A DNA stretch of 64,000 bases from contig RSEH01000045.1 of assembly GCA_006503475.1 (NCBI GenBank), positions 124,001 through 188,000 of the forward strand. The letters run 5' to 3'. This document shows positions 1-64,000 of the stretch, piece after piece. The position numbers and the translations under genes were made by a program. The notes below the pieces were generated by a model. That model worked only from the letters and a program-made list of their open reading frames with translations, was not told the DNA's origin and ran no database searches. The stretch is from Stentor roeselii. Its lineage: Eukaryota > Ciliophora > Heterotrichea > Heterotrichida > Stentoridae. Numbering within the stretch: the first letter of the stretch is position 1; each line of letters starts with the position of its first letter.

Positions 1-1
1 A

Positions 2-3000
2 GCGATGAGCGAAATCGAGTTCTGGAGGACAAAAAGCGCTAGTCTAAGTGCTTTACACCAGCAGTTCCAACTTCAGCAGGTGAAGGACATCATCAAAATG
101 GCGGAAGATGAAAAGGAAAGCTCAGAAAATGGTGTCCTTGAAGCCTTCCAAAGACAACTAGCTCAGCTGACTAAAGATTACGCAGTCGCCAAGGATAACG
201 TCAAGTTTTTAAACACTCTTGAAAGGCAATTCAAAACCATAGAAAAAGGCTCCTTGCTTCAAATAGAAGAAACCCTTGCCAGTCTCATGAACGGTCTTCG
301 ACTTGTATGGACTATTTCCAGACACTATAAAAATGATGAAATGATGGCACTTGAACTTTGCATTGCGAATGAAATCGCTGACAGGGTAGAGTCAGAAATC
401 AAGGTAAGTGAGATTTTTCGTAATGAAGAACAAGAAAAATCACTGGAACTCATCGAACGTGGAATTCGAGTGCTTGATAAATGGTACGAAACAGTGACAC
501 AGACCAAAAAAGAAGTCGACACAGGAGACAACAACCACTGGCCTTCTGATAAAAAACTCTTTGAAAGAACAAAGCACATAAAAAGCATTCTTCAAGAAAT
601 GAAAGAAGCAGTCGTTTGTCTCAAAGAGTTCTTCAGCTTCCTCAACAAAGACCTAAAAAAAGTCACTGGCGACACCCAAGGAATTGAAGACGTTATAGAA
701 CAAGTCAAGTCTGTCAGCAAGCCCCTCGAAGCCATCGGCAAAGTCTTTTTAATAGACACTAATAACAAACCCTGGAACGCCCCGTACGCCAAGTTCAAGG
801 AAGAGGTGAAAATCATTGAAAACAAAACTATCGCTATGATAGACATCGCGTTTAAAAAGCTGAGATCAGCAGAAGGCGCCTTTGACCTGATACAGAACTT
901 GAAAAGTGTGAAGACTCGAGAAAGTATCAAAGAACAGATGCAAAAAAAATTCACTGATATTTTAACGAAATATGGAGAAGAAGTACAGCAAATGAGTCAG
1001 ATATTTAAAGATCTTGAAACAAACCCGCCGATTAGCAAAGGAAAACCACCTTCAGCAGGGAAGATCACTTGGAGTGAGTCAATCTTTCAAAGGGTCAAGA
1101 AACCTATCATGAAGTTCAAGACCAAAGACGACCTGCTTAGTAGTGAAGAAGGGAAAAGAGTGTCAAAGATGTACTTCGACTTGGGTAAAGAAATCCGACA
1201 TAATTACCAGAAAGAGATTTCAACTAAGTGGATCGACAATTCAAAGAAAACTGCTCAGGAGTCACTGAAAAAACCTATTTTAAAGCTCAAAGATGGAAAG
1301 TACTTTGTTGACTTCGACCCTGACCTTGAAATGATGATTAAAGAAGCAAAGTATATGAAAAGGGAAGACCTTTCGAATACTGTTCTTAATGTCGCTCTTC
1401 AGGAAAAAGAGTATAGAAAACATGTGGATCAACTCAATGCTATGCTTAATGAATATAATGACGCTGTTGGAACTTTACCACCTGAAGAGAAAAAACTGCT
1501 GAAAAAGGAAATTGATAACTTAGATGCTGCTCTTAGTCCTGGAATCAACTCTTATAATTGGCACTCACTTGGAATCAAAACTTTCATTGAAGGATGCAGA
1601 AAAGCTTTGAAAAACTTCATGGCTATCAAGTCGCAGGTCTATAAACAGAAGGATATGATTGAGGAAAGGGTGAAAATGATTGAAGAATCGAAACTTGTTG
1701 TTGAATTCGATTGGACTAGAAAGGATTACTCGCAGGTCATGGATATCACTGAGTTTTGTGATTATATCGAAAATCATCGGGTGTCTGTGGTTAATGAACT
1801 GTTTAAGAAGTACTCTGAAATCACTGATAATTTGCTGTCTATTGAAGAAATCACTCTTAATAGCAAAACTAAAGCTGCGCCTGAAATGGTTAAATATTAT
1901 GGATACTGGGAAAAACGCATTTTTAATGCCATTACTACGATGGTTATTAGAGGACTTTTGAGTCTTAAGGCTTTGTTTACGAAAAGGGATGATCGACCTC
2001 CCCTCTTCCGAGTCTCCACATCCTACAACCACCCAAAAATCACTTACCACCCATCCCAATCAGACATCGAAAAAAACCTCCAAAAGCTAGTAACAGGAAT
2101 TCTCGAATCCTCAAAAGCCTTTCCAAGATGGCAAAACGAGCGTTGCGAGATGTGCAAGCCTCGTCGAAACACAAACGACGTAGAAGAGTACTACCATCAT
2201 TTCTACCGAGACGTGAGTAAAATCCAGAACATCCTAACCCTTCAAATGAAAATCTCAGAAATCTGCAGTAATTCCTGTTCAAAGCTGGTAAAGCGTGCAC
2301 GTTTCTGGGAAAACAAATACAAACTTCTAGTAAACGACAAGCATAAGTCTAAAATCGAAAAAATGGGTGAATCGATGAATTTTTCTCAAATCGAGGCATG
2401 TCTGTACAAGTACAACAACATGATAATTGAGTTCGAGACTTACAAGCAAGAGAAAAAAGTGATGTTCATGTTGGTTGACGACTCCAGAACTCGCACGTCT
2501 TTCAAACGAGAAGCTTTCAAATGGCTGACACTTTACTCGAACATCCTCTACGACAAGGCCTCGAAAGGACTGAAAGAAACTTTGAAGGACATTGACGACT
2601 CTCGCATTAAGTTGCAAGAAACTCCGAGCGACATCAATAGCATGAAGTCCCTTCTTAGTGAAATCTCGAAAATAAACAGCAGTCATATGGTCGTCGAGTT
2701 CAAAATCATCGAAATCGAAGAAATGTTTAGAAACCTTAAAATGTACAACAATGCCAGTTTCACTGATCAAAATAAACAAGATAACCTCTCTGAAGCTGAA
2801 AATTTAATGAAAAGATGGAAAGACCTTCGACGTGAAGCAAATCAAAAAAACTTCTCAATGCTGAAATACAAGGAAAGATTCGCAGAAGAGACTAAAGTCG
2901 ACGTTTCTGCCTTTCAAAAACAAATTAAATACCAGTACCGCACTTATAAAGATGAAGGCCCAGGAGCTCCTGACATTCCTTTGAAAGATGGAGTTGCAGC

Positions 3001-6000
3001 TTTGGCACAGTATAAAGAAATCATATTTTTAGATAACAAGCGCAAAGAAGAACTCGTCATCGCTGAGCAGCTTCTCGGTTTACCAATCAGTTCATTTGAA
3101 GAGCTTGTGATAATGGAAAACACGAACTTGAAACTAGAGAAGTTGTATAAAATTTTCACTGACTTGCAAGAAAAAATTGCGAAATGGAGCTCAACTGCTT
3201 GGAACGACATCGACATTGGAACTATTGAAAAAGAATCAGAAGAGTTTTATAAAAGGACTATCAAACTGGAAACTGAATACTCTGAAAACAGAACTTATGA
3301 TAAACTTAGAAAGGAAGTCACTGGCTTCAAGGAAAGTGTTCCACTCATTCGAACTATGAAATCTGAACACATTAAACAGAGACATTGGGAAAAACTGTTG
3401 AAATCTATTGGATATGAACATAAACTTGACTTTAAAAATATCACTTTGCAGCAGGTCTTCGACCTGCAGTTACAGGAGTATAATGAAAAAGTAGAGGAAA
3501 TCGCAACTGAAGCTAGAAATGAAGCTGCTCATGATGCTACTATTCAATCAATTGAACACACTTGGAAAACTACCAACTTTCCAATGGGACGGTATAAGAG
3601 AGGAGTTGAAGAAAAGTCATTCGTTATCACTAATTGTGATGAGATCAAGGAAAAAATCGATGATCAACTCACTGATCTTTCAAAATTAAGCAATTCCAGG
3701 TTTGCAGGACCTTTTATGGAACGAATCAGAAGACTTGACAAACAACTGAATGTTATCAGTGATTGCATCGATCTTTGGCTTGTAGTCCAAAGAAAATGGC
3801 AATACCTGGAAAGTATCTTCGTGGGCAGTGAAGACATCAGAATCATGCTCAAAGATGAAGTAAAAAGATTCGACAGAACAGACAAGTCCTTCCGAAAACT
3901 CATGGAAAACACCTACAAAAATCCAAACGTGCTCACTTCTTGCTATGTATCCGACATCAACCCAGAAGAACGTATTAAAGAACTTAAAAATATTTCAAAC
4001 GATTTAGACAGCTGCCAAAAACGTCTTTCAAACTACCTGGACACCAAAAAAGGAGCCTTTCCACGTTTTTACTTCATCAGTAACGATGAACTTCTCAGCA
4101 TCTTAGGATCTTCGAACCCAGAAGACATCCAGCCGCATATGTTGAAACTTTATGACAACTGTAAAGAACTCAAATTTTCTAGAAATAAGCAAGTCTTAGG
4201 AATGACTTCAGATGAAGGCGAGGCTTACAACTTTTTGACTCCTGTCAAACCTGAAGGCGCTGTCGAGATCTGGATGAACAGACTTGATGATGAGATGGAG
4301 ACCACTCTTCATCGGTTCACAAAGGAAGGAGTTTATTATTATGCTGAGTCGGATAGAATCGAGTGGATTAAAAAGAACTTGGGAATGGTCGGAATCGTTG
4401 GGGTTCAGATTTGGTGGACCTGGAGTGTTGAAGATGTCTTTAGGAGGGTCAAGGAGGGGAATAAACATGCGATGAAAGAAGAAAGTGCAAGAGAGACTAA
4501 GTGCTTGATTGATTTGATTGAACTTGTTAGGACTGATTTGCCGAGATTGATAATGAAAAAGATTAACACTTTGATCATTCTCGACGTGCACGCCCGTGAT
4601 ATCGTCGACAGATTCGTCAGAGACTCAATATTAGACGCCAAAGAATTCGAATGGGAATCACAACTTCGCTTTTACTGGAACCGTGAGCGAGACAACATCG
4701 TGATCGAGCAATGCACAGGTTCCTTCAAGTACAAATACGAGTACCAGGGTCTAAACGGCCGACTAGTAATAACTCCCTTGACTGACCGATGTGTGATGAC
4801 AATAACCACTGCTTTAACCTTCCATCTCGGAGGAGCTCCTGCGGGGCCAGCCGGTACAGGGAAGACAGAAACCGTGAAAGATCTTGCAAAAAGTCTTGCA
4901 ATCCGTTGCATCGTCACCAACTGTGGAGAAGGCCTGGACTACCAAGCAATGGGAACGATTTTCAGTGGCCTAGTTCAAAGTGGCTTCTGGGGATGTTTCG
5001 ACGAGTTCAACCGAATCAACGTCGAGGTCTTGTCAGTTGTTTCCATCCAAATCAAGACAATTCAAAGTGCCCTGTCTGCAACGAAAGGTGTTGTCGACCT
5101 GCTGGGTAAAGAAATCCCGATAGTGGAGTCAGTCGGAATCTTCATCACAATGAACCCGGGGTACTCAGGCCGTAGTGAACTGCCTGACAACCTGAAAGCC
5201 TTGTTTCGGCCAGTGACTATGGTCGTCCCGGACATGATCCTTATCTGCGAAATCATGCTTATGTCAGAAGGCTTCACATTGGCCCGAGTACTCGCCAAGA
5301 AAATGACAGTGCTTTACAAGTTATCACAAGAACAACTTTCAAAACAGCATCACTACGACTTCGGACTCAGAGCACTCAAGTCGGTACTGGTCATGGCAGG
5401 GACTCTCAAGAGAAACAACTTAGAACTCGCGGAAGATATGGTCCTAATGAGAGCTTTGAGAGATATGAACAAGCCGAAGTTCGTTTATGAAGATGTCCCT
5501 TTGTTCATGGGACTCATCAATGACCTGTTCCCTGGACTTGACTGTGCTCGAGTCGTTTATGAAGAGTTGAAAGTGAAAGTTCATGAGTACCTCAATGAAA
5601 ACAACTTCATGTGCTCTGATGAGGAAAAGTTCCAAAAGCAAATCGACAAAGTGATGCAGTTGCATGAAACAATGCAAACTCGACATACAACTATGGTCGT
5701 AGGTCCAACAGGAGGAGGTAAAACAACGATTATCTTAGCTTTGAAAAACGGGTACCAAGGGGTGAACCCTGACCTGAAAGTCAACATCGACATCATCAAC
5801 TCGAAAAGCATCACCGTAAGAGAACTCTACGGAGAACTCGAGCCAACAACAAGAGACTGGACTGACGGACTACTCAGCAAGTTGTTCAGAGACATGAACA
5901 TGCCGCTTCCTGAAGGAAAACAAGAAAAACGTTGGATTTTGTATGACTCCGACGTCGATGCACTGTGGGTGGAAAACATGAACAGTGTCATGGACGACAG

Positions 6001-9000
6001 CAAACTTCTTACTTTAAACAATGGAGAAAGAATCCGGCTTGAAAAGTACTGCTCCATGCTTTTCGAAGTCTTCGACCTTCAATACGCCTCTCCTGCGACT
6101 ATCTCACGGTGCGGTATGGTCTTCGTGGACGACAAGGACCTCAGCTACCAGCCGTACTTCGAGCGATGGGCGAAGCTTAAAGGAGAACTCGCCGAAGGCC
6201 TGACTGATAATTTAAACAGTCTTTTCACCACTAACGTCGAAAAGTGTGTCGCTCGAATCATTGAGGGAAAAGTAGAAGAAGGCGTCTTCGAAGCGCCTTT
6301 AATCAACGTCACTCCTCGCACAGGTCTTAATTTAGTAACGCAACTTTGCAAGATGATCGACGTGATGATCGCTGAAGAGAACCCGCCTCAAGACCGTGAC
6401 GCTTTAGAACCGATTTTTGTATTCGCGATGCTTTGGTCACTGGGGTCTACTCTGCTTGCAGAAGAAAGAATTAAACTTGAAAATTTCATGTCGAGGTACG
6501 TCGACAGCAAAAACCCTCCGAAGGACTTTTATGCTTACTACTGGGATAAAGAAATCAGGACCTGGAGACCTTGGGAAGAAAAAGTCAGGGCTAAAGGCTT
6601 CGAGCTTCCCAGTGATAGAAAGTTTTCAAAGATCTTGGTACCTACAATTGATACTGAAAGGCACACTTGGCTGCTTAATGAACTTGTTAAGAGAAGGATG
6701 CCTATGGTTTTTATTGGAGATTCTGGAACTAGCAAGACTGTCACTATTCAGAAGTTTTTGGATGGACTGGAAAGCAACTTGTGGCAGATCTTGAATATCA
6801 ACTTCTCATCTAGGACTAGCTCTGCTGATGTTCGGAATAATTTAAAGGAAAAACTTCAGAAACGATCTGGAAAGTTCTTTGGACCTACTGCTGGGACTAA
6901 GTTGATTATTTTTGTGGATGATATGCATATGCCGAAGTTTGATGATTTTGGAACTCAACAGCCTTTGGCGTTTTTTAAGTTTTTGATTGAAAAAGGGTAT
7001 TATTTTGATATGACCACTTTGGAAGAGCAGCATGTTGTTGATACCACTTATCTGTTCTCTATGCAACCCCCTGGAGGAGGTCGAAACCCTTCAGATCCTC
7101 GGTTTATGTCATTGTTCTGCATCTTCAATATCACTTTTCCGTCATCTGACAGTCTTAAACATATTTTCAAGTCAATTTTAACTAAACATCTTGACAGCTT
7201 CCCTGAAGAAATTCAGGCGGTTTGTGACTCGATCACTGACCTGACACTTAAACTTCATGTTGATATCATTGAAAGACTACCGAGAACTCCTGTCAAGTTT
7301 CATTATATTTTCAATTTGCGTGACTTGTCGAGAGTATTTGAAGGCCTTTATCAAGCAACTTATGAAATGTTTCCAAGTCTTGCTGAATTTATTAAACTTT
7401 GGAGAAATGAAGCTACAAGAGTTTATGCTGATCGACTTATTAACTTTGAGGATAGAGCTGTTGTGGTTGAGGATTTGATTCCTAAACTCATTAAAAAGAA
7501 CTATACTGAGCATAGTGAAGTTATTTTGGCTGAGCCTTTATTTTATGGAGACTTTAGACATGCTGATCCTGTTGAGCATCGGTCGACTGAACCTAGACTT
7601 TATGAAGATTTAAAGTCCTACGATTTCGTCACAGACAAGTTCAACCGTCTTTTAAAAGAATACAACGAAGAAAGAGTCCCAATGAACCTAGTTCTCTTCA
7701 ACTATGCAATAGACCACTTGACCCGAATCCACCGAATCTTCCGCATGCCCAGAGGAAACGCTTTACTAATCGGTTTCGGAGGTTCAGGTAAGCAAAGTCT
7801 CACAAAACTAGCTGCTTTTGTGGCAGAGCACCATTTATTCCAGATCACTTTAACCAAGAACTACAGCGAAAGCAGTTTCAGAGAAGACCTTAAGATTTTA
7901 TTCGGATTACTCGTCGAGAAGTCAGTTGTATTTCTAATAACCGACGCCCACATCAAGGAAGAAGGCTTTTTAGAGCTAATCAACAATATCTTGACTATGG
8001 GAATGGTCCCTGCTCTCTTTGATGAAGACGAAAAAGTGGGAAAAGCCCGGCTGCTCACTGATGAGATGAAAAGGGAAGGATTGATTAACCCGAATAAAGA
8101 AATGCAGTGGAATTATTTCGTGAATAAAGCAAGGGACAACTTGCATATCGTGCTTTCGATGTCTCCTGCTGGAAATACTTTGAGGATTCGGTGTAGGAAC
8201 TTCCCTGGACTTGTCAATTGCACGTCTATTGATATGTACTTCACTTGGCCTGAAGATGCTCTTGCTTCGGTTTCGACCTACTTTTTGAAGTCGAAAGACC
8301 TTCCTGATGAACATCGAGCTGGAATTGAAGCACATATTGTTAAAGTTCATTTGTCTATTTATGAATTTTCGAAAGAGTTTGATCGTAAAATGAAGAGAAA
8401 AAATCATGCGACTCCGAAGAATTTCTTGGATTATATCAATACTTATATTACTATGCTTTATAAACTTCGAAAAGAGATTGACCGGAATGTCAGTCGTCTA
8501 GAGACAGGTCTAATAAAACTCCGCGACGCAGCTGTAAGAGTAGATGAGATGTCAAAAGAACTAGAAGTAAAAAAACGTGAAGTCGATTCCAAAAAGGCAG
8601 AAGTTGAGGCGATGATCGCAGATTTACAAGTGAAAACCCAGATAGTAACCACCCAAAGTGCTCAAGTAGCCGAGAAAAAAGCCGACTTAGAAATCCGCGA
8701 ACGTGACATAACAGAAGAAAAAAGAAAAGCAACAGAAGCCCTCGACGAGGCCCGTCCAGCATTAGAACGTGCAAAAGAAGCTTTAGCAGTACTAGACTCT
8801 AAAAAACTCGGAGAAGTAAAAGGTTACAACATTCCTCCAGGGCCAATCAAAGACACCTGCATGTGCATTCTAATCCTAAAGCCCTTAGGCGAAGACACCC
8901 CTCCAGAGTCAGAAGAATGGGAAGGTTGCAAAAAGATGCTTGCGAAGCTCAGCATCAAGACACTCATGGACTTCAACGCGCAGAAAATCACGAAGAATCA

Positions 9001-12000
9001 AGTGGCGAAGATCCAGAAGGACTACCTGAGCAAGTCAGAGTTCAATGAAGAAACTGTCACTTCGATTTCTCAGGCAGGAGGAAACCTTTTCTCTTGGATG
9101 AGCGCAACTGTCGGGTTTTGGAAGGTCTGGGTCACTGTCAAACCTCTGCAGGAAAAAGTTGATAGGGAAACGGAAAGGTTGAATAAGGCGAAAGCGGAAC
9201 TTGCTGAGACTACTGCACAGTTGCAGGTATTGCAAAATGATATCATGGAACTTAATATCAAACATAAGGCAGCTTCTGAAGAACTTAAGTTTCTTACTGA
9301 TCAGGCTAATGAAATGGAAAGGAAACTTAATATGGCCTCCAGACTTATCTCGGGACTTAGCTCTGAAAATAAAAGATGGGGAGAAGACTCGCAACAGCTT
9401 AGGGTTGATAAAGAAAGACTTTTAGGAGATTGTGTTTTGTCTGCTGGGTTTTTGTGTTATACTGGCGCTTTTAATTATGAGTTCAGGGATCAGATGGTGT
9501 ATAATACCTGGGAACAAGACATCCGTGAAAAAAACATTCCAATGTCCGAGTCTTTCAACATCAGAAAACTCTTAACAAACGACGTCGAATGTTCGCGCTG
9601 GGCAAGCGAAGGTCTTCCTCAAGACGAGTTAAGTATTCAAAACGGTATCCTAACAACATATTCCTCAAGATTCCCTCTATGCATAGATCCCCAAGAGCAA
9701 GCAGTAAAATGGATAAAAAACAAAGAAAAGAACTTAGACAGTATCACATTCAACAACCCGAAATTCGTCAAAAGTTTAGAAAACGCGATAAGTTTCGGTG
9801 GATCCTTCCTCATCGAAAACGTCGACGAAGAACTTGACCCGATGATTGACTCAGTTCTTGAAAAAAGCTACACAGTCGAAGCAGGTCAAAAAATGTTAAA
9901 TTTGATGGGCAACAAAATCGTCTGGGATGAGAACTTCCGAATGTTTATCACAACAAAACTTTCAAATCCAATGTACACTCCTGAAATCATGAGCAAGACA
10001 AGCATCATCAACTACACAGTCACCATCAAAGGCCTTGAAGACCAACTGTTGAATGAAGTCGTTAAATATGAAAGACCTGATCGTGAAGAGGCTCGACAAC
10101 GGCTGGTTTATGAAATGAGTGAAAATCAAACCAAGAGGAAAGAACTCGAAGAAAGTCTGTTGAGAGAACTCACTTCAGCTAAAGGAGACATTCTTGAAAA
10201 CATCGAACTCGTCGCGACTTTAGAAGAAACTAAAACAAAATCAGTCGAAATCACTGCTGCTATTGAAAATGCGAAGGTGACTAAAATGGAAATTGATAAA
10301 GATCGAATGGCTTATCAACCCGCAGCTTTAAGAGGATCGATTCTCTTCTTCGCGATGTCTGGACTTTCAGCGATAAGCTCCATGTATGAGTACTCTTTGT
10401 CCAACTACCTTCGGGTCTTTCGGCAGTCTTTGAAAGACGCACGTAAAGACAACATGATCGTGACTCGAGTGAAGAACATCATCGAGAGGTTAACGATGAA
10501 CATTTACAACTACACCTGCCTCGGTATCTTCGAAAGACATAAAATCATGTTCAGCTTCCACATGACCATCATGATCATGGAGCAAGACAACGAAATCGAC
10601 CCTGTTGAATACGACTTCTTCTTGAAAGGCAACACAAGTCTAGAAACTTTATCCCTTCCTAAACCTTTCGCTTGGATGCCTGATCAAGGCTGGAAAGACC
10701 TGGACCGTCTCATTGACGTAAACGCGAAATTCTCAAAACTCAGAAATGACATCTCAAAGAATGAAAAAATTTGGAAAGACTGGTACGACTTGGAAACGCC
10801 TGAAAAAATCACAATTCCTATGGGGTATGACGCGTTGAGTCCTCTTGAAAGGTTATGCATTTTGAAGATCTTCAGAGTAGATCGAGTTTACAACGGCATC
10901 AAGAACTTTATTAATGAAAAGCATCGAACTGAACATTTCATCGCCCCTCCTCCTCCGCAGTATGACAAGATTTATGACCAGACCAACTGCAACTCGCCAG
11001 TGGTCTTCATATTATCACCTGGAGCCGACCCTTACAGTGATGTTGCAAAACTTGGAGAGGTCAAAGGCTTCACTTCCAATAAATTCAAAGCTCTTGCCTT
11101 GGGACAAGGCATGGGTCCTCAGGCAATTGAAAACTTAAGGACCGGAGCGCAAAGAGGCCATTGGGTCATGCTTCAGAACTGTCATTTACTTGTAAAATGG
11201 CTGAAAGAACTTGAAAAAGAACTCGAGCAACTCACTAAACCTCATGCGGACTTCAGACTTTGGCTCACTACTGAACCGACTGATAAATTTCCTCTTAGTA
11301 TTCTTCAACAGTCGTTGAAAGTCGTCACTGAGCCTCCTGATGGCCTTAAGCAAAATATGAGAGCGTTGTTTAGCAAGATTAATGATGAGACTTTAAAAGA
11401 ATGTCCTCATCCTGCTTTCACTCCGATTGTTTATGTGCTGACTTTTGCACATGCTGTTGTGCAGGATCGGAAGAAGTATGGAAAGATTGGGTGGAATGTT
11501 TCTTATGATTTTAATGATAGTGACTTTAGGATTTCGATGAGACTTCTGTCGATGTATTTGTCGAAGGCTATTAGGGATAAGGATGAGTCGATTCCTTGGA
11601 ATTCGCTGAAGTATCTGATTGGAGAAGCTATGTATGGAGGCAGGGTCACTGATGATTATGATCGAAGGGTCCTGGCTACTTATTTGAATGAATATATGGG
11701 AGATTTTATTTTTGATACTAATCAGCCTTTCTTCTTTTCGAGGACTGGATTTGATTATTCGATTCCTTCTGAACCTGTTTATGAGATTTATACTGCTGCT
11801 ATTATGGAACTTCCTAGCTTGAACTCTCCTGAGGTTTTCGGGTTGCATACTAATGCGGAAATCAGGTATTTTACTAACTCTACTAAGGGACTTTGGCTTA
11901 ATCTTTTGTCTATGAGAAGCTCGGAAGGTGCTTCGGCTAGTTCTGCTTCTTCTGAATCATTTTTGAACTCGACTATTGAAGCTACGCTAAAGAAGATCCC

Positions 12001-12784
12001 TCCAATATACGACGTTCTCGTAATCAGAAAGCAACTGGGAGAAAACCTAAGACCCACTCAAGTAGTCCTAGTTCAAGAGTTAGAGCGATTCAACATTTTG
12101 ATCTTAATGATGACCAACTCCTTAAACAACTTATTCCGTGCCCTGAAAGGAGAAATCGGTATGTCCGGTGAGTTAGACGAGCTTGCCGCTGCCCTGATCA
12201 ACGGTTTCCTTCCCGAGTCCTGGAGACGTTTAACACCCCAGACAGAAAAGCCCCTCGGCTCCTGGATCGACTTCTTCACAAAGCGCGACGACCAGTACCG
12301 TAAGTGGGTTGACAACGACGAGCCTCGAGTGATGTGGCTGAGCGGTTTACACATTCCTGAAAGTTTCTTAACAGCAATAGTACAGCAGACCTGCCGTGAC
12401 AAGAAATGGGCGCTGGACAGAAGTACTTTGTACACAAAAGTCACTAAATACAAACTGCCCTCTGAAGTCTCAAGAAACCCGAAAACAGGAAAATATGTTT
12501 CTGGACTTTACCTTGAAGGGGCAAGGTGGGACTTTGATAGGAAGGTCCTCGCCAAGCAGATTCCAAAGGAACTGGTATTTGAAATGCCGATTGTTAAAAT
12601 TATTCCTGAAGAAGCAAATCGTGTTAAACTTAGAGGTACTGTCAAGACCCCGGTTTATGTGACTCAAGCAAGAAGAAACGCTGCTGGCAAAGGACTCGTG
12701 TTTGAAGCGGATTTAAGAACTGATGAGCATACAAGTCACTGGATTCTTCAAGGAGTGGCCTTATCTCTCAACATTGATTATTAA
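2..12784 (+). CDS. axonemal dynein heavy chain, 5' end outside the window
   Basis: This is the motor subunit of a ciliary dynein, which slides axonemal doublet microtubules by ATP hydrolysis. About 4260 residues are visible without an intron. Counting from the first Met (base 5), the four AAA P-loops are GPAGTGKT near residue 1614 (AAA1), GPTGGGKT near 1900 (AAA2), GDSGTSKT near 2238 (AAA3) and GFGGSGKQ near 2590 (AAA4). The AAA1 block also has GCFDEFNR. A coiled-coil stalk with the microtubule-binding tip follows at roughly 2820-3120, then AAA5/AAA6 and the C-terminal domain. The first visible residues, EIEFWR, match the conserved tail motif that in axonemal dyneins lies a few hundred residues inside the protein, and the frame stays open to base 2, so the true start is probably upstream. 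The C-terminus resembles inner-arm I1 beta (DNAH10-type) from memory; that subtype is tentative. Confidence 0.95.
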   Translation, partial: AMSEIEFWRTKSASLSALHQQFQLQQVKDIIKMAEDEKESSENGVLEAFQRQLAQLTKDYAVAKDNVKFLNTLERQFKTIEKGSLLQIEETLASLMNGLRLVWTISRHYKNDEMMALELCIANEIADRVESEIKVSEIFRNEEQEKSLELIERGIRVLDKWYETVTQTKKEVDTGDNNHWPSDKKLFERTKHIKSILQEMKEAVVCLKEFFSFLNKDLKKVTGDTQGIEDVIEQVKSVSKPLEAIGKVFLIDTNNKPWNAPYAKFKEEVKIIENKTIAMIDIAFKKLRSAEGAFDLIQNLKSVKTRESIKEQMQKKFTDILTKYGEEVQQMSQIFKDLETNPPISKGKPPSAGKITWSESIFQRVKKPIMKFKTKDDLLSSEEGKRVSKMYFDLGKEIRHNYQKEISTKWIDNSKKTAQESLKKPILKLKDGKYFVDFDPDLEMMIKEAKYMKREDLSNTVLNVALQEKEYRKHVDQLNAMLNEYNDAVGTLPPEEKKLLKKEIDNLDAALSPGINSYNWHSLGIKTFIEGCRKALKNFMAIKSQVYKQKDMIEERVKMIEESKLVVEFDWTRKDYSQVMDITEFCDYIENHRVSVVNELFKKYSEITDNLLSIEEITLNSKTKAAPEMVKYYGYWEKRIFNAITTMVIRGLLSLKALFTKRDDRPPLFRVSTSYNHPKITYHPSQSDIEKNLQKLVTGILESSKAFPRWQNERCEMCKPRRNTNDVEEYYHHFYRDVSKIQNILTLQMKISEICSNSCSKLVKRARFWENKYKLLVNDKHKSKIEKMGESMNFSQIEACLYKYNNMIIEFETYKQEKKVMFMLVDDSRTRTSFKREAFKWLTLYSNILYDKASKGLKETLKDIDDSRIKLQETPSDINSMKSLLSEISKINSSHMVVEFKIIEIEEMFRNLKMYNNASFTDQNKQDNLSEAENLMKRWKDLRREANQKNFSMLKYKERFAEETKVDVSAFQKQIKYQYRTYKDEGPGAPDIPLKDGVAALAQYKEIIFLDNKRKEELVIAEQLLGLPISSFEELVIMENTNLKLEKLYKIFTDLQEKIAKWSSTAWNDIDIGTIEKESEEFYKRTIKLETEYSENRTYDKLRKEVTGFKESVPLIRTMKSEHIKQRHWEKLLKSIGYEHKLDFKNITLQQVFDLQLQEYNEKVEEIATEARNEAAHDATIQSIEHTWKTTNFPMGRYKRGVEEKSFVITNCDEIKEKIDDQLTDLSKLSNSRFAGPFMERIRRLDKQLNVISDCIDLWLVVQRKWQYLESIFVGSEDIRIMLKDEVKRFDRTDKSFRKLMENTYKNPNVLTSCYVSDINPEERIKELKNISNDLDSCQKRLSNYLDTKKGAFPRFYFISNDELLSILGSSNPEDIQPHMLKLYDNCKELKFSRNKQVLGMTSDEGEAYNFLTPVKPEGAVEIWMNRLDDEMETTLHRFTKEGVYYYAESDRIEWIKKNLGMVGIVGVQIWWTWSVEDVFRRVKEGNKHAMKEESARETKCLIDLIELVRTDLPRLIMKKINTLIILDVHARDIVDRFVRDSILDAKEFEWESQLRFYWNRERDNIVIEQCTGSFKYKYEYQGLNGRLVITPLTDRCVMTITTALTFHLGGAPAGPAGTGKTETVKDLAKSLAIRCIVTNCGEGLDYQAMGTIFSGLVQSGFWGCFDEFNRINVEVLSVVSIQIKTIQSALSATKGVVDLLGKEIPIVESVGIFITMNPGYSGRSELPDNLKALFRPVTMVVPDMILICEIMLMSEGFTLARVLAKKMTVLYKLSQEQLSKQHHYDFGLRALKSVLVMAGTLKRNNLELAEDMVLMRALRDMNKPKFVYEDVPLFMGLINDLFPGLDCARVVYEELKVKVHEYLNENNFMCSDEEKFQKQIDKVMQLHETMQTRHTTMVVGPTGGGKTTIILALKNGYQGVNPDLKVNIDIINSKSITVRELYGELEPTTRDWTDGLLSKLFRDMNMPLPEGKQEKRWILYDSDVDALWVENMNSVMDDSKLLTLNNGERIRLEKYCSMLFEVFDLQYASPATISRCGMVFVDDKDLSYQPYFERWAKLKGELAEGLTDNLNSLFTTNVEKCVARIIEGKVEEGVFEAPLINVTPRTGLNLVTQLCKMIDVMIAEENPPQDRDALEPIFVFAMLWSLGSTLLAEERIKLENFMSRYVDSKNPPKDFYAYYWDKEIRTWRPWEEKVRAKGFELPSDRKFSKILVPTIDTERHTWLLNELVKRRMPMVFIGDSGTSKTVTIQKFLDGLESNLWQILNINFSSRTSSADVRNNLKEKLQKRSGKFFGPTAGTKLIIFVDDMHMPKFDDFGTQQPLAFFKFLIEKGYYFDMTTLEEQHVVDTTYLFSMQPPGGGRNPSDPRFMSLFCIFNITFPSSDSLKHIFKSILTKHLDSFPEEIQAVCDSITDLTLKLHVDIIERLPRTPVKFHYIFNLRDLSRVFEGLYQATYEMFPSLAEFIKLWRNEATRVYADRLINFEDRAVVVEDLIPKLIKKNYTEHSEVILAEPLFYGDFRHADPVEHRSTEPRLYEDLKSYDFVTDKFNRLLKEYNEERVPMNLVLFNYAIDHLTRIHRIFRMPRGNALLIGFGGSGKQSLTKLAAFVAEHHLFQITLTKNYSESSFREDLKILFGLLVEKSVVFLITDAHIKEEGFLELINNILTMGMVPALFDEDEKVGKARLLTDEMKREGLINPNKEMQWNYFVNKARDNLHIVLSMSPAGNTLRIRCRNFPGLVNCTSIDMYFTWPEDALASVSTYFLKSKDLPDEHRAGIEAHIVKVHLSIYEFSKEFDRKMKRKNHATPKNFLDYINTYITMLYKLRKEIDRNVSRLETGLIKLRDAAVRVDEMSKELEVKKREVDSKKAEVEAMIADLQVKTQIVTTQSAQVAEKKADLEIRERDITEEKRKATEALDEARPALERAKEALAVLDSKKLGEVKGYNIPPGPIKDTCMCILILKPLGEDTPPESEEWEGCKKMLAKLSIKTLMDFNAQKITKNQVAKIQKDYLSKSEFNEETVTSISQAGGNLFSWMSATVGFWKVWVTVKPLQEKVDRETERLNKAKAELAETTAQLQVLQNDIMELNIKHKAASEELKFLTDQANEMERKLNMASRLISGLSSENKRWGEDSQQLRVDKERLLGDCVLSAGFLCYTGAFNYEFRDQMVYNTWEQDIREKNIPMSESFNIRKLLTNDVECSRWASEGLPQDELSIQNGILTTYSSRFPLCIDPQEQAVKWIKNKEKNLDSITFNNPKFVKSLENAISFGGSFLIENVDEELDPMIDSVLEKSYTVEAGQKMLNLMGNKIVWDENFRMFITTKLSNPMYTPEIMSKTSIINYTVTIKGLEDQLLNEVVKYERPDREEARQRLVYEMSENQTKRKELEESLLRELTSAKGDILENIELVATLEETKTKSVEITAAIENAKVTKMEIDKDRMAYQPAALRGSILFFAMSGLSAISSMYEYSLSNYLRVFRQSLKDARKDNMIVTRVKNIIERLTMNIYNYTCLGIFERHKIMFSFHMTIMIMEQDNEIDPVEYDFFLKGNTSLETLSLPKPFAWMPDQGWKDLDRLIDVNAKFSKLRNDISKNEKIWKDWYDLETPEKITIPMGYDALSPLERLCILKIFRVDRVYNGIKNFINEKHRTEHFIAPPPPQYDKIYDQTNCNSPVVFILSPGADPYSDVAKLGEVKGFTSNKFKALALGQGMGPQAIENLRTGAQRGHWVMLQNCHLLVKWLKELEKELEQLTKPHADFRLWLTTEPTDKFPLSILQQSLKVVTEPPDGLKQNMRALFSKINDETLKECPHPAFTPIVYVLTFAHAVVQDRKKYGKIGWNVSYDFNDSDFRISMRLLSMYLSKAIRDKDESIPWNSLKYLIGEAMYGGRVTDDYDRRVLATYLNEYMGDFIFDTNQPFFFSRTGFDYSIPSEPVYEIYTAAIMELPSLNSPEVFGLHTNAEIRYFTNSTKGLWLNLLSMRSSEGASASSASSESFLNSTIEATLKKIPPIYDVLVIRKQLGENLRPTQVVLVQELERFNILILMMTNSLNNLFRALKGEIGMSGELDELAAALINGFLPESWRRLTPQTEKPLGSWIDFFTKRDDQYRKWVDNDEPRVMWLSGLHIPESFLTAIVQQTCRDKKWALDRSTLYTKVTKYKLPSEVSRNPKTGKYVSGLYLEGARWDFDRKVLAKQIPKELVFEMPIVKIIPEEANRVKLRGTVKTPVYVTQARRNAAGKGLVFEADLRTDEHTSHWILQGVALSLNIDY

Positions 12785-12787
12785 TAA

Positions 12788-22382: not shown

Positions 22383-22678
22383 TAATTAACTCTTGGATTA
22401 ATTATAGATTTTTTTTTTTTGGGTTTGATATGGGTTAGTTTGGGGATTTTTTGGAGGGATTTGGATGAGGAAGGGTTGGGTAGGTGGGGTTTTGAAGGAT
22501 TTTTTTGGGTGGGGGTTAAAGGTGGGTTTGAGTGGGAATGGAATTTGGATTAAAGAGTTGGGGAGGAGGATTGAAGGTTAGGGAGGTTAGATTGATGGAA
22601 TGACTAGTTTCACATCTCATACCATCAATCCACTCTCCTTATTCAATCATTCTCACCTTTTCTAAAAATTTTTGAAAT
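22383..22678. other. gene-free interval with G-rich then C-rich halves
   Basis: These 296 bp separate histone H3 from a convergent unknown gene. From about 22420 to 22600 the + strand has many G-tracts (GGGG, GGG, GGGGG); bases 22441-22500 hold 29 G and no C. After the hairpin at 22590-22630 the bias reverses: 22621-22680 hold 17 C and one G. No open frame of note is present. Confidence 0.8.
22590..22630. repeat. inverted repeat, 14-bp arms
   Basis: The left arm GATTGATGGAATGA (22590-22603) and right arm TCATACCATCAATC (22617-22630) pair at 13 of 14 positions around a 13-nt loop. It lies between two convergent genes, exactly where G-rich changes to C-rich sequence. Confidence 0.75.
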
Positions 22679-49021: not shown

Positions 49022-49909
49022 ATGAATTTCACTCCTCCTGATCAGAATAAACAGGTTCAGGCTATTGGAATGTTTCAACGTAATTCTAGAATCGAGGCAA
49101 AAGCTTTTTCGTTTAATCCTTTGCATTTTCAAGATATGGGTGTTCCTGGGCCTGATGACTGGTTGAGCTATAATCATGAACCAGGACAAACATTCGATAA
49201 ATATTCAACAAAATGTTCATATCCAAACAAAAAACAGAAATTTTACATCCAACCACTCGGAAAAACCTTCAGTCAAAGAACCTTAGAAATGCTTCAAGAA
49301 TTCGCAACATTATTCTACCCAGGTATGCCATTTGTAATCCGATCTCCAATAAGCTTAAAATCCTTAAAACTAAAAAAGCGTTTAAATTGCAATAAAGAGC
49401 AATACAGCGGAGGTCAGATATTAAAGAGTATCCAAGGCACAGTCAGAAGTAATCCAGAAACATATGCAACAATAGCAGTTTTATTCCAAGACATTTACAA
49501 CAGAGAAGAAGGAAATTTTGTCTTTGGTCTTGCGAATGGACAGTCAAAAACTGGAGTTTTTTCATTTGCCAGATATGACAACAGGTTTTATGGACTTGAG
49601 GAAAATCAAAATTTGCTTAACTTTCGGGCTGTCAAGGTCATGATTCATGAGATGGGTCATATGTTTGGACTCAGTCATTGCATTTACTTTCGGTGTTTGA
49701 TGAATGGATCTAATCATATGGAAGAGACTGACAATAAACCTTTTTTGTTATGTTCAGTCTGTGCTAGAAAAATTCATCATTTGTTGAAATTTGATGTCGT
49801 TGCTTGGTACCAGGGAATTTTGAATGGATTGAGGAAGTATGGAGAGTTTTTTGGACAATTCATTGACTGGTATTCAACAAGGGTTAATTATTTGATGTCA
49901 AGTGAATAA
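49022..49909 (+). CDS. AMZ: archaemetzincin metalloprotease
   Basis: Archaemetzincins are zinc peptidases whose cellular substrates are little known. The family signature is intact: HEMGHMFGLSHC at about 209-220 (HExxHxxGx3C), followed by CLMNGSNHMEE and the second CxxC (CSVCARK near 241). The Met turn is the Met of CLMNG. The protein has 295 residues, in the usual range for eukaryotic AMZ. Residues upstream include LGKTFSQRTLEMLQEF. The start ATATAATGAATTTC lies 13 bp from the divergent TFIIF beta start, so promoters must overlap. A longer in-frame reading upstream lacks a comparable context and enters the neighbouring coding strand. Confidence 0.94.
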   Translation: MNFTPPDQNKQVQAIGMFQRNSRIEAKAFSFNPLHFQDMGVPGPDDWLSYNHEPGQTFDKYSTKCSYPNKKQKFYIQPLGKTFSQRTLEMLQEFATLFYPGMPFVIRSPISLKSLKLKKRLNCNKEQYSGGQILKSIQGTVRSNPETYATIAVLFQDIYNREEGNFVFGLANGQSKTGVFSFARYDNRFYGLEENQNLLNFRAVKVMIHEMGHMFGLSHCIYFRCLMNGSNHMEETDNKPFLLCSVCARKIHHLLKFDVVAWYQGILNGLRKYGEFFGQFIDWYSTRVNYLMSSE

Positions 49910-51228: not shown

Positions 51229-51594
51229 TTATAAGTTAGTTCGAAATTTCTTAATCAACTCTTGAAAGCCTTCTCTCGATAAGGGCTGAATAACTGCCTT
51301 TCGGGAATCAATTGGGGGCAAAGATCGAGCAGTAGTAGATTGATGTAACTTAGGAGCACTCGAAACAATAAGATGTTCTTTCAGCATTTTATCCTTTAGT
51401 TGTTTCGGCAACTTTTTTTTAGACCTGGTATGTTCTCGATATTTCTTGATCAAAAAGTAGTTTTCCAGGTAAATATCTTTTTCACTCTGATAAGGTTTTA
51501 AATGACTACTTCTTGAATTGCAGCAGTCAAGAACGAATTCTTTTTTGTTTGTTGGCACCTGGGAAGAAACCTTTCTAACAGTTTTACCAATCAT
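51229..51594 (-). CDS. small basic protein, 121 aa
   Basis: Unrecognised. High in Lys, Arg, Ser and Pro, with little hydrophobic core; the middle helix (EKDIYLENYFLIKKYREHTRSKKKLPKQLKDKML) is basic. The C-terminus GFQELIKKFRTNL may be amphipathic. This could be a real small gene or an open frame by chance; the start (AATGATTGG on the minus strand) is weak, but the frame is longer than expected at this AT content. It diverges from the D-2-hydroxyglutarate dehydrogenase 135 bp away. Confidence 0.6.
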   Translation of the reverse strand: MIGKTVRKVSSQVPTNKKEFVLDCCNSRSSHLKPYQSEKDIYLENYFLIKKYREHTRSKKKLPKQLKDKMLKEHLIVSSAPKLHQSTTARSLPPIDSRKAVIQPLSREGFQELIKKFRTNL

Positions 51595-56301: not shown

Positions 56302-57711
56302 TTATTTTTTAAGTAAAGGGTCCAAGTCTCTTAACTTGCTAAGTAAATTTTTCGCATTTTGATTCATGATATTTCTTTGAACTTCAGAAACTTTCTTTTC
56401 TTCTTCTTCCTTTTTGATGAGTCCATCAGGTCCTCTCTGCCGATTCATTCTTCTCATAAGTTCAGCTGAAATTCCTGCTTCGTTCGACTCTGGAATGGTC
56501 AGCGAGGCCATCTTCGGCCTTGGTTGATGAGAAGTGGAAAACCAAACGTGTTTCAAGGCATCTCTCGCTGAAGGTCTTGCTTCAGGGTCACTGTCAGTGA
56601 GTCGTAAGACGCAGTCGATTCCTTCTCTTGACACGTTTTTCCAGTACCTGTCTTGAAAGTAAATTTTGCATTCTTTGTTTCGCATTAAAATTTCGTTTTG
56701 AGTCTTTCCGAAAAAAGGAGCTCTTGAAGAAAGCATCACGTATAAAATTATACCAGCACTGAAAATGTCGACTTTTTTATTGTAAGTCATTTTTTTTAAG
56801 ATTTCTGGAGCTACGTAGCCTGGAGAGCCACATCTTAGGAGCTGGTCTTCTTTGCATTCGCAGGCTAAACCGAAATCAGCTATTTTGAAATCGTAGTCGC
56901 AGTCAAGGCGAGTTAGAAGGATGTTCTCAGGTTTTAAGTCACGATGAATGAAGTTTAAAGAATGCATGTAGTCCAATGCTTCAAGCAAATTTTTCATAAA
57001 CTTGATAGAATCCTCTTCAGAAAAATTCGATTTTTCAATAATCCGATGAAACAAATCCCCTCCAGGAAGATAATCAAGAATCAAATGAATAAACTTATCA
57101 TTTTCATAAACCCTATGAAGTTTCAACAAATAAGGATGATCCAATTTCCTCATAATATTAATTTCAGAAATCAAAGCATTGACAGTTCTATTGCTATTCA
57201 TGACAGCTTCTTTACTAATAGACTTGACAGCATATTGTTTATGATCTTGAACATCCTGAGCCAAGTAGACCTTTGCATAGTTTCCAGATCCAATTTCCTT
57301 AATAATCGCATAATCTTCCTCCAAATCATTTAAAATTGCGACTTTGCTAAGAGCATCAAGCCAGTCCTCAAGTTCTTTCGGGTTCTTCGAGTAAAAATCC
57401 TGAAAAATTCCACCCTGAGTCAAGCGAAACCCAAATCTTTCTTCTTGATCACTGGCTTCACAAAAAGCTTCAAGTTTTTTCCAAGTAACGATCGACATTT
57501 TCTTAGGTCTGTCATGTTTTACTTTGTAAATCCTTGTCGGGGTCAAAACAATAGAACGAGTCTTGAAAGAAGAAGAAGGACTGAGGAACTGAAGAGAACT
57601 TGAATGAATTTTTCTTTCTGAGAAGTCCTGCATTGCAAGTTCATCCAAGTGTCTCCAGAACTTGAAGCTCTGGTTGACTGTTTGGTCGATAGTTTCAAAG
57701 ACTGATGCCAT
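56302..57711 (-). CDS. PH-domain protein kinase, CAMK type
   Basis: This Ser/Thr kinase has an N-terminal PH-like domain (about 35-130: SIVLTPTRIYKVKHD...WLDALSKVAI). The kinase domain spans about 137-395: Gly loop GSGNYAKVYLAQ, Lys in YAVKSIS, HRDLKPENILL, DFGLACEC, and CGSPGYVAPEIL at the activation segment. The CAMK class is suggested by this segment and by the EDYAIIKEIGSG opening; PH-CAMK combinations are frequent in ciliates and apicomplexans. The C-terminal 70 residues are charged and may be a regulatory segment. I see no EF-hands, so it is not a CDPK. Its start is 9 bp from the stop of the RING gene on the same strand. Confidence 0.92.
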   Translation of the reverse strand: MASVFETIDQTVNQSFKFWRHLDELAMQDFSERKIHSSSLQFLSPSSSFKTRSIVLTPTRIYKVKHDRPKKMSIVTWKKLEAFCEASDQEERFGFRLTQGGIFQDFYSKNPKELEDWLDALSKVAILNDLEEDYAIIKEIGSGNYAKVYLAQDVQDHKQYAVKSISKEAVMNSNRTVNALISEINIMRKLDHPYLLKLHRVYENDKFIHLILDYLPGGDLFHRIIEKSNFSEEDSIKFMKNLLEALDYMHSLNFIHRDLKPENILLTRLDCDYDFKIADFGLACECKEDQLLRCGSPGYVAPEILKKMTYNKKVDIFSAGIILYVMLSSRAPFFGKTQNEILMRNKECKIYFQDRYWKNVSREGIDCVLRLTDSDPEARPSARDALKHVWFSTSHQPRPKMASLTIPESNEAGISAELMRRMNRQRGPDGLIKKEEEEKKVSEVQRNIMNQNAKNLLSKLRDLDPLLKK

Positions 57712-61522: not shown

Positions 61523-64000
61523 ATGAGCAGCCAGGATCTTAAAACACCACTGCTAATCGCTTCTCGTGATAATGGCCCAAGCCCCAATCAAAATGCAGAA
61601 TCAGAACCAATGAGTCCTATAATAAAGATAACTCAAACAACAGCGAGTGGCCAATCACCATTTTGGGCTTCGGATAAATCATGGGAGGATAGAAAAGCAG
61701 AAGCCCAGAAATATCTGACTGATAACAAAGATGATCCAAAATTAAAGCTTCACTTGCTAGCACATGAATTGAACTATGAAGAAATTGAAAAATTAGCCCA
61801 ACAAGAATGGAAAAAAATCGGTTATCATCTTGACAAACAGCACAAATATATGATTAAAGATAATGAAAAGTGGCCAATAATTAGAATGAATCCTAGTGAA
61901 GGTTTATTCGTTTTTAATATGGGACCTTTAGGACTAGCTTTTGGAAAAATAGAACAAGACAAATCAATCAGTATAGGAAAACCTTTGAACCAATTAAAAC
62001 TTTATATTAAACAGAATGAGCTTGGACTAACACCATTAATTTACGCTATTTGGGCTGAGCAAGATGCAAAAACACTATTAAAAAGGACTAGTGGCCTTTT
62101 TTATTATATGGAATTCGAAATCGATGATTTAGGTCACTTCATTAATTTGAATGAAGTTATCCAAAACGAACTTTACCAGGCTTATCTTCACTTTGACTCT
62201 ATTGAAGCTATAAAATTTATAATTAAATCAGACTTTTCAAATATGCTGAAACTTATAATCCAAGAACAAAGATTTAAAATTGTATTACCAGTGAATAAAT
62301 CTCATCTTTTACTATCATTGAAATATAAATCATTAGAATGCTTTTCCTTAATTATTGAAGAATTTTCAAAAGATATTTTTAAAGAAATAAAGAAAACTGA
62401 AGAAAGCCAGAATATTCGAGTTTTGTCACCTAATAGTGTAGTAGAAGATGCAATAAATGGAGAAGTTGGAAGTAATGATGAACTTTCAAAGTACTTAAAA
62501 GAAATTGATGAAGTTTTGAAATTTTATTTAGAGTTTTTTTTAGAAAAACTGAAGAATCAAGAATTAAATATTGATTCTTCAAGCATTACAATCAAAGAAA
62601 TCTTAAATACTGTATCTTCAAGAATTTCAATCAATGAAATCTTAAAAAACGATTATTCAAATATTCTTAATTGGATAATTCAGAGCGGAAAATATAATAT
62701 CAATTCAAGAATATTTAATCAATCCTTACTTTTAATAGCGATAAAGTCTAATTCCATCCGATGCACTGATATTATTCTTGATTATTTGATACAAACAATA
62801 AAAAATCATAATAAAAATACTATGAAATTGCGTAAATTAATCTTTATTAACATTGAAAAAGAATTAGGAGACTATTTATTAACTCCTTCTAGTCATATCA
62901 AAGAACTTCTCAGCCTAGTAATCGAAGAAAAATATAAGAGACTCCAAGAGAACTCAGAAGATCTTCCTAAGTGCAGGATGATTGAAGATAAAACAGAGTC
63001 TGAAAATATATTTAAAAATAATCCAGGTGAAGAAGAAAACACAAATGTTAAAATAATTAATACATCAATAAGAATCCCAGGAACTATGGGAAGTGAGAAA
63101 AGTATCAATTTCTTAAAGAATCTTGAGGCGTCTAAAAACCTTCAGTTGCACAAGGCGCCGATCATTAAATATTATTTGAGGTATAAATGGGATTATGTGA
63201 GACCAATCGTATTATTTCTAGATATACTGATACTAAGTAATATTCCTATATTATATATTCTGATTTATATTTTAAAGGCTGAAGATCGCCGTGAACTAAT
63301 AGAAAAACATATTTACCTTGTGTTAATTTTGCTTCTGAATAACTTCATTTTATCATTATATGAAATCTTTCAAATTATCGCGCTTGGATTTCATGATTAC
63401 TTCGGATTAATTGATTTCAATGCAGTTCATTTTTTTGTAACTTTGAGGTTCATCTTTTTAATAGTTTCAGTTTTTATTAATTTTTTCAGCTCAGAAGTAT
63501 TATTTTTAGGTTCAGAAATGTTCACACTGTTTTCATATGTTTTTTGTTCAATCATTTTTATTTTCAATTCTGATTTTAGAAGATGGTATGAAACAGTCAC
63601 ATTGATAAGAGTTACTTTAATCTTCGCACCTTTACTGATTTTCTGGTATTCTTTGAGTGAAAGTCAAACTGAGCTTTTTATAAGTAGCATATCTGCGTTT
63701 ATTTATATGACAGTTATAGGGGGTATTTCAATAAATAATTTTTATGAATGGAGGCCCACAATTTCGGGTATAAAACTAGTTATTGTTTTCATTGCACTTC
63801 TAATAGGTAGCTACAAGTTCGAAATTTTCATTATATTTGAATTAATCTTTATTGGTTTGTTAACTTCTAATTTATTTATTATCAAGGAATACAACTTACT
63901 GACTTTGGGGTACCTGATCATTGATTCAATCATTGCAGTTAGTTTCTCTTTAAACTTTTTATTAGAAAACTTTTATTTTTTGAATTTATTTGTTTTCATT
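61523..64000 (+). CDS. polytopic membrane protein, 3' end outside the window
   Basis: The frame is open from the ATG at 61523 to the window end (826 residues, no stop). Residues 1 to about 555 are soluble: a Ser/Asn-rich start, then charged helical sequence with an ankyrin-like phrase (NELGLTPLIYAIW) and long Lys/Glu/Asn stretches. From about 558 on, at least seven strongly hydrophobic helices follow (e.g. VLFLDILILSNIPILYILIY; VLILLLNNFILSLYEIF; FVTLRFIFLIVSVFINFF; LVIVFIALLIGS). This order, large cytosolic part then many membrane spans, recalls TRP-like or other ankyrin-bearing channels, but no pore motif is visible here. The preceding ATG (61513) meets a stop after four codons. Confidence 0.8.
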   Translation, partial: MSSQDLKTPLLIASRDNGPSPNQNAESEPMSPIIKITQTTASGQSPFWASDKSWEDRKAEAQKYLTDNKDDPKLKLHLLAHELNYEEIEKLAQQEWKKIGYHLDKQHKYMIKDNEKWPIIRMNPSEGLFVFNMGPLGLAFGKIEQDKSISIGKPLNQLKLYIKQNELGLTPLIYAIWAEQDAKTLLKRTSGLFYYMEFEIDDLGHFINLNEVIQNELYQAYLHFDSIEAIKFIIKSDFSNMLKLIIQEQRFKIVLPVNKSHLLLSLKYKSLECFSLIIEEFSKDIFKEIKKTEESQNIRVLSPNSVVEDAINGEVGSNDELSKYLKEIDEVLKFYLEFFLEKLKNQELNIDSSSITIKEILNTVSSRISINEILKNDYSNILNWIIQSGKYNINSRIFNQSLLLIAIKSNSIRCTDIILDYLIQTIKNHNKNTMKLRKLIFINIEKELGDYLLTPSSHIKELLSLVIEEKYKRLQENSEDLPKCRMIEDKTESENIFKNNPGEEENTNVKIINTSIRIPGTMGSEKSINFLKNLEASKNLQLHKAPIIKYYLRYKWDYVRPIVLFLDILILSNIPILYILIYILKAEDRRELIEKHIYLVLILLLNNFILSLYEIFQIIALGFHDYFGLIDFNAVHFFVTLRFIFLIVSVFINFFSSEVLFLGSEMFTLFSYVFCSIIFIFNSDFRRWYETVTLIRVTLIFAPLLIFWYSLSESQTELFISSISAFIYMTVIGGISINNFYEWRPTISGIKLVIVFIALLIGSYKFEIFIIFELIFIGLLTSNLFIIKEYNLLTLGYLIIDSIIAVSFSLNFLLENFYFLNLFVFI

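Follow-up and report, generated by a model that had tools for sequence, protein, structure and literature searches.

The window, that is the whole 64-kb stretch of DNA analysed here (C331:124001-188000), belongs to a genome of 44.4 Mb in 522 contigs that is consistent with a Stentor-like heterotrich somatic genome. Its genes are compact and mostly uninterrupted, and the telomere repeat CCCTAACA supports the ciliate setting. Stentor telomeres are built from the same repeat as the one found here (TGTTAGGG/CCCTAACA); the end of C331 carries TGTTAGGG repeats, and among the places listed the plus-strand copies of the repeat begin no more than 75 bases from the contig start, while minus-strand copies lie at the far end of C5, C9, C11 and C40. 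TAA or TAG is the stop in 25 of 25 window ORFs of at least 200 codons that end inside the window, and in 39 of 42 such ORFs of C331:1-120000. TGA is nearly absent as a stop (0/25 and 3/42, respectively), and the frames are open without reading TGA as tryptophan, as in the standard code. S. coeruleus likewise uses the standard code, with introns of 15-16 nt (PMC9505925); in Blepharisma stoltei TGA is read as tryptophan (PMC9942856, PMC9942806), which is apparently not the case in this genome.

A dynein heavy-chain gene opens the window and offers its best stretch for reading base composition at synonymous sites. The genome has 17 dynein heavy-chain loci with frames of 4026-4658 codons; the locus on C40, alone among the 17, contains an internal TAG. 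A Polo-like kinase gene with a POLO box follows (12791-14515), the kinase part of which has more than 20 DNA-level matches elsewhere in the genome, and the core histone gene further downstream is presumably H3, judging by its N-terminus. A DNA search of the assembly with window positions 1-20000 listed diverged paralogs, one-contig tandem-repeat matches and tRNA copies, with no redundant or germline copies among these matches. In total, about 0.28 Mb of the 44.4 Mb was analysed, comprising the window and additional fetched loci; a single contig supplies two thirds of this sample. ORFs were called mechanically, with a minimum of 130 codons in most tests, and short or spliced genes may sit in some of the gaps.

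Table 1. The dynein reading frame and positions of GT-to-AC composition steps in the window (kernel positions and amplitudes from the dynein fit, the remainder from the step scan)
Feature	Position	Strand	Detail
Dynein heavy chain ORF	2..12781	+	uninterrupted frame of 4260 codons, continuing past the left edge; DHC_N1, DHC_N2
GT-to-AC step in dynein ORF	1991..2000		kernel amplitude 0.60
GT-to-AC step in dynein ORF, absent from the sequence-only reading	3660..3670		kernel at 3665, amplitude 0.37
GT-to-AC step in dynein ORF	4549..4580		kernel amplitude 0.44
GT-to-AC step in dynein ORF	7573..7616		kernel amplitude 0.54
GT-to-AC step in dynein ORF	8469..8498		kernel amplitude 0.56
GT-to-AC step in dynein ORF	9500..9510		kernel at 9506, amplitude 0.58
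GT-to-AC step in dynein ORF	11965..11996		amplitude 0.66, highest of the gene's 12 kernels
GT-to-AC step in minus-strand ABC1-like kinase gene 20291-21724	20737..20748		step scan
Largest step of the window, at 22607 (0.68), G-rich then C-rich	22404..22680		gap after core histone gene 21966-22379
GT-to-AC step in minus-strand E/Q-type tRNA synthetase gene 28405-30222	29418..29425		step scan
GT-to-AC step in ORF 49022-49906	49169..49178		step scan
GT-to-AC step in gap, absent from the sequence-only reading	51585..51585		step scan, 0.56
GT-to-AC step in minus-strand kinase gene 56305-57711	57035..57035		step scan; given as 56970 in the sequence-only reading

Along one strand of the window, G+T-rich blocks switch abruptly to A+C-rich ones and drift back gradually, a sawtooth described earlier by eye in a sequence-only reading that listed 20 steps. 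All 20 are negative (GT to AC) in 100-bp windows, and the base counts given as an example are exact (29 G and 0 C at 22441-22500; 1 G and 17 C at 22621-22680). Taking the best position within 30 bp, the listed steps have a median percentile of 0.011, compared with a mean of 0.21 in 500 random sets of 20 positions, the lowest of which had a median of 0.066. The weakest are 33785 (0.198), 8490 (0.099), 39305 (0.083), and 4575 and 29425 (0.066 each); at 8490, 32690 and 33785 the 100 bp to the left are not GT-rich in absolute terms. In a codon-preserving shuffle, in which synonymous codons were permuted per gene and gap bases within gaps, none of 300 shuffles reached the observed GT-AC variance at any of six scales (z of 22 at 60 bp, 27 at 100, 32 at 200, 28 at 400, 15 at 800 and 8 at 1500). 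The gaps bear the same skew in stronger form, with 396 GGG and 48 CCC in block-oriented gap DNA, a descriptive count given that the orientation is set by the skew itself.

The residual of each codon, defined as its (G+T)-(A+C) value less the mean of its amino acid, is positively autocorrelated in the window to about 80 codons, negatively at 100-260 codons and near zero at 300. Thirty long genes behave alike, with a zero near 100 codons and a sole trough near 190, and no period is apparent, the autocorrelation being about 0 at 300-500 codons and slightly negative, to -0.009, at 550-680. Purine residuals show no comparable correlation; residuals of GC content are correlated, but more weakly and over a shorter range than GT-AC. 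C331:1-120000 and three 10-kb pieces of other contigs (L022, L024, L025) behave like the window, and L023, a gene-poor, AT-rich piece with two ORFs, is noisier. A 50-kb stretch of E. coli gives a flat autocorrelation. Overall, shuffle, sign-flip and random-position tests rule out chance, and the sawtooth is confirmed as real and not confined to the window.

Because a GT-to-AC step reads the same after reverse complementation, the sawtooth possesses centres but no direction. The earlier remark that gene strand does not explain the steps is therefore true but automatic. The asymmetry between an abrupt fall and a gradual return is present in coding sequence alone. There the step statistic has a skewness of -0.37 over 30 codons, -0.47 over 40 and -0.46 over 50 (p<=5e-5 in 20,000 sign flips; +0.01 at 30 and +0.04 at 50 in codon shuffles) and of -0.32 over 70, all of them more than 3 null SD away. 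Significance is lost at 10 codons (p 0.067) and at 100 codons (p 0.068). Computed in an identical way for both, the skewness at 30 and 50 codons is -0.19 and -0.03 in the E. coli stretch and -0.28 and -0.53 in the window, so that the 30-codon value taken alone would be weak evidence. AC-to-GT changes also exist, only less steep, and a 50-codon detector finds 102 negative and 98 positive steps in genes. With gaps included, 62 negative and 28 positive steps are called at a threshold of 0.35, and 109 and 61 at 0.28; because the promoter composition of gaps adds to this negative excess, the test on coding sequence alone is given preference. The thresholds for steps and the numbers of kernels are the analyst's choice.

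A kernel decaying from a GT|AC step accounts for 6.5% of the residual variance in 30 long genes, compared with 4.8-5.0% for its mirror image, and beats the mirror in 22 of the 30 with a 100-codon decay and in 20 with a 140-codon decay; the margin is clear but not large, because the mirror partly fits the rising ramp. The best decay is 300-420 bp for an exponential kernel and 600-780 bp for a linear one. Fitted to the autocorrelation, linear local dipoles leave an error of 0.026, a ramp filling the interval between steps 0.068 and Poisson-spaced exponential dipoles 0.096; ramps and local dipoles are only weakly distinguished by these fits. Steps number about one per kb by eye, and the fits constrain this density poorly. 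In the dynein gene, the 12 best kernels (a preset number) lie at 86, 425, 2000, 3665, 4580, 5771, 7052, 7616, 8498, 9506, 11996 and 12749, and this blind fit recovers all six dynein steps seen by eye (1995, 4575, 7615, 8490, 9505 and 11985) within 11 bp.

Synonymous codons follow the blocks, in keeping with the earlier suggestion of strand-biased mutation; reverse-complement contexts, amino-acid shift and codon shuffle all agree. In plus-strand genes, the C share of two-fold codons falls from 70% to 21% between the extreme deciles of neighbourhood skew, and (G-C)/(G+C) at four-fold codons runs from about -0.46 to +0.26. At four-fold codons the choice between A and G moves together with this C/T choice, and T accompanies G both there and in Y codons. 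AAR and GAR codons barely respond (slopes 0.67 and 0.09). The C/T slope in a context x_y is closely mirrored by the A/G slope of its reverse complement (r=0.94 over 16 contexts), whereas C/T and A/G slopes in the same sense context, the control, correlate at r=0.42; the weakness of AAR and GAR is thus an effect of context rather than of the codon. The C/T slope is steepest before G, with a mean of 4.29 compared with 1.22-2.87 before other bases. The skew is accompanied by an in-phase shift in amino-acid content (z 5.7-7.4 at up to 50 codons), which mutation pressure would be expected to produce. The target of the bias is the DNA strand, not the codon.

Three of the 32 context slopes are negative (GCT/GTT, AAC/AGC and, weakly, GAC/GGC). 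GCT/GTT and AAC/AGC are mutual complements, and the reversed response to local skew is present in both complementary readings.

Paralogs provide a view of how far the phase of the sawtooth is shared. The dynein gene of the window and two paralogs that are 37-38% identical to it show no clearly common phase (r -0.10, 0.32 and 0.04). The closest of 15 pairs of Hsp70 paralogs, L002/L004 (74% amino-acid identity, third-position identity 0.61), has a phase correlation of r=0.73; in the remaining 14 pairs r lies between -0.22 and 0.48. The match is only suggestive of persistent sites, since shared descent could also give it. Codon shuffle, dynein paralogs and reverse-complement contexts together rule out codon usage or amino-acid content as the main cause.

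Steps occur inside single exons and in gaps, as described before, and long genes hold additional ones inside; gene boundaries, to which the sequence-only reading gave no role, are nevertheless enriched in them. The first 120 or so codons of genes are AC-rich, and their ends are GT-rich (79 genes); the sense-strand residual is -0.132 over the first 100 codons (p 6e-7) and +0.091 over the last 100 (p 0.003) in 89 genes. Sorted by neighbour, and with a junction possibly counted twice, once per gene, the averages are -0.182 for starts that face another start (n=34), -0.086 for starts that face an end (n=38), +0.100 for ends that face a start (n=38) and +0.105 for ends that face another end (50 gene ends, p 0.016). 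Each kind of junction thus tends toward a step, most strongly where starts meet, and promoters may contribute to the steps there. Phase correlation across gene junctions is not significant (r=0.15, n=54), with a within-gene reference of r=0.19 (n=241, p 0.003). Transcription start skew was rejected as the source, end-facing-end junctions showing the step too and one ORF holding several. A transcription start with a G/T-rich coding strand produces an upward jump, opposite in sign to the steps seen here.

The local sequence at 105 step centres holds nothing convincing in the way of a motif among 10, 32, 134, 429 and 660 words of 2-6 bases; the top excess reaches z 3.2 (two of 660 hexamers) and the top depletion z -3.8 (AGGAA, 12 vs 31). 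An oriented motif of the Chi or KOPS type was considered and rejected, as the excess of TTTTGG over its complement in coding sequence (108 vs 2) is explained, like that of other long words, by shorter parts. Chromosome ends do not behave as steps, only the last 200 bp being GT-rich (+0.091, se 0.025; 7 ends) and not the 200-800 bp further inward. A rise in GC is absent, with four-fold GC of 0.25-0.29 within 240 bp of in-gene steps and 0.30-0.38 beyond, which gives no sign of GC-biased gene conversion as at ordinary meiotic hotspots.

The base composition shows dipoles, with their polarity, scale and codon independence, and a transition-type, context-dependent, strand-symmetric bias. It is very probable that these are strand-asymmetric mutational dipoles around many fixed sites. 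In this respect the sequence-only reading holds up, in that strand-biased mutation at fixed, point-symmetric sites is supported, whereas the bidirectional initiation site that it proposed is not established. Each sharp step would be the centre of an antisymmetric mutational footprint, with a long-term excess of C->T (strongest before G) and A->G on the top strand to the left and on the bottom strand to the right, fading over 300-700 bp. We infer that the bias arises by mutation, and that on each side it fell on the strand that has its 3' end towards the site and so was more often single-stranded.

Tentatively, we favour a recurrent double-strand break in the germline (micronuclear) DNA followed by resection as the cause of the dipoles, a reading that is plausible but falls somewhat short of an even chance. 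Breaks at preferred places, about one per kb, would be resected 5'->3' for a few hundred bases, and the exposed 3' tails would suffer deamination or error-prone fill-in; the preference for gene junctions would follow if breaks favour open intergenic linkers or are better tolerated there. The break reading leads because the sign of the skew, with C and A lost on the left and G and T on the right, is that of the 3' single strands beside a resected break. At human meiotic hotspots, the single-stranded stretch is to the left of the break for the forward strand and to its right for the reverse strand, C>N and A>N mutations fall on one side and G>N and T>N on the other, and C>T is raised at CpG (PMC7615360). 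The steps resemble these PRDM9 hotspots, as that source describes them, in the loss of C and A on the left and of G and T on the right, read here as composition, in an extent of 1-2 kb, and in C>T strongest at CpG together with A>G, taken here from the composition (the C/T slope) rather than from observed mutations. They differ in that the hotspot data are rates of new mutation at PRDM9 sites, while the steps are a feature of base composition, spaced at roughly one site per kb and lacking both a motif and a rise in GC. Against breaks count the fall rather than rise of four-fold GC near steps, the missing motif at the 105 centres, the steps at tail-to-tail junctions that have no promoter, the three reversed contexts out of 32, and the better fit of the interval ramp than of Poisson-spaced exponential dipoles, though not than of linear ones. 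A hotspot per ~1 kb is far denser than any break map we know of.

Fixed, efficient replication origins with an A+C-rich leading strand, as in budding yeasts, represent the initiation reading with its sign corrected, and are unlikely, even though the sign agrees with yeast, where the leading strand is enriched in A and C (PMC3459929); 3' single strands flanking a break account for the sign no less well. The same source gives human origins an upward jump of G-C plus T-A, opposite to the steps here. Yeast and human replication skew share the abrupt step and gradual return with the sawtooth, and yeast origins the GT-to-AC sign, but the spacing there is far wider and the jumps are near 9%; the 9% GC jump of yeast is far below the four-fold range seen here (PMC3459929). 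The ramp that fills the interval between origins fits somewhat worse than linear dipoles and better than exponential ones. About 40,000 sites would be needed, each dominating its own kilobase, and the step centres carry no motif. Human origins have central breaks and error-prone early synthesis, with composition skews obtained by modelling (PMC9645720), so the origin and break readings may overlap.

An abrupt step with gradual return is also familiar from bacterial replication skew. At Candida albicans centromeres the skew jump occurs at one place per chromosome. As at these centromeres, the local jump here is very large (74% for GC there), and the author argues that the Candida jump is not caused by replication (PMC3459929); the jumps in the present genome differ in being many and in lying inside coding sequence.

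Equally unlikely is a reading in which the steps mark IES positions, where germline-limited segments would break, form hairpins or get nicked in the germline, their flanks would mutate, and the soma would keep the skew as a scar. Blepharisma stoltei has ~40,000 IESs in 41 Mb, mostly intragenic and slightly depleted in genes (PMC9942856, PMC9942806), and this density and lean towards gaps resemble those of the steps; the missing motif would fit a removed element. The dinucleotide TA, the usual IES boundary, is however barely enriched near the 105 steps (686 vs 648 expected, z 1.7), and excision itself is somatic and not inherited. Fork barriers, at which forks from both sides stall and the exposed lagging-strand template is mutated, are improbable: they predict GT on the left, AC on the right and a local decay, the same sign as a break as judged from strand polarity, but no sequence element marks the step centres, and we know of no counterpart spaced at ~1 kb.

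Selection on codon usage, or an effect at the level of translation, would give genes A/C-rich starts and G/T-rich ends, which is what the sense-strand averages of the 89 genes show, and is very unlikely to explain the sawtooth. Single ORFs hold several strong steps (amplitudes 0.54-0.66 at 2000, 7616, 8498, 9506 and 11996), context tracks the reverse complement over the sense strand, the three dyneins lack a clear common phase, and the gaps are skewed too. As the whole cause, such selection is already largely refuted; a residual effect at translation starts could contribute. Least probable of all is selection on strand composition, for example for G/T-rich 3' ends that aid telomere addition at somatic fragmentation: B. 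stoltei has 46,705 potential alternative telomere sites (PMC9942856, PMC9942806), and a break at a GT|AC step leaves two ends whose 3' strands are rich in G and T, as in TGTTAGGG telomeres, but GT-richness at the 7 chromosome ends is limited to the last 200 bp and the excess of long words is accounted for by the shorter words within them.

Strand skew in somatic DNA is known from the nanochromosomes of other ciliates (Nyctotherus, PMC2633312; Halteria, PMC7858049; and Sterkiella/Oxytricha, as cited in these papers), and for Halteria deamination has been proposed as its cause (PMC7858049). As presented in these sources, those skews are of purine or GC type and lie beside telomeres (300 bases examined in Nyctotherus), while the skew described here is a keto skew that repeats inside genes far from telomeres. 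Blepharisma stoltei is closer in other respects, being a heterotrich with CCCTAACA telomeres, ~1 IES per kb and a slight avoidance of genes (PMC9942856, PMC9942806); neither 'skew' nor 'asymmetr' occurs in the main text of PMC9942856. Among the papers listed by searches of the open-licence PMC literature, none announces a comparable sawtooth in its title or the opening of its abstract, and the ciliate skews in those consulted are subtelomeric.

If mutation at fixed breaks does shape synonymous and amino-acid composition, breaks could be mapped in relatives from sequence alone, germline mutation in a ciliate would depend on particular sites and not on errors of replication, and predictions of codon usage and of origins from skew would be confounded in such genomes. 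It is conceivable, though rather doubtful, that the somatic sequence alone records, at close to base resolution, tens of thousands of evolutionarily persistent germline break sites, possibly insertion points of eliminated sequence, with break-associated mutation dominant in the germline. Break, origin, barrier and IES each predict a different mapped signal at the same step coordinates.

Several minor features accompany the sawtooth in the window. Convergent ORFs end 7-17 bp apart (12781/12791, 20284/20291 and 35387/35404), leaving extremely short 3' regions. A tandem repeat of GGAATGGGA units occupies 15011-15118 within ORF 14627-15538, and similar repeats are present at C392:163-749. The tRNA-Thr (AGT) at 18743-18815 has copies on C139, C70 and C466 that are 94-99% identical.
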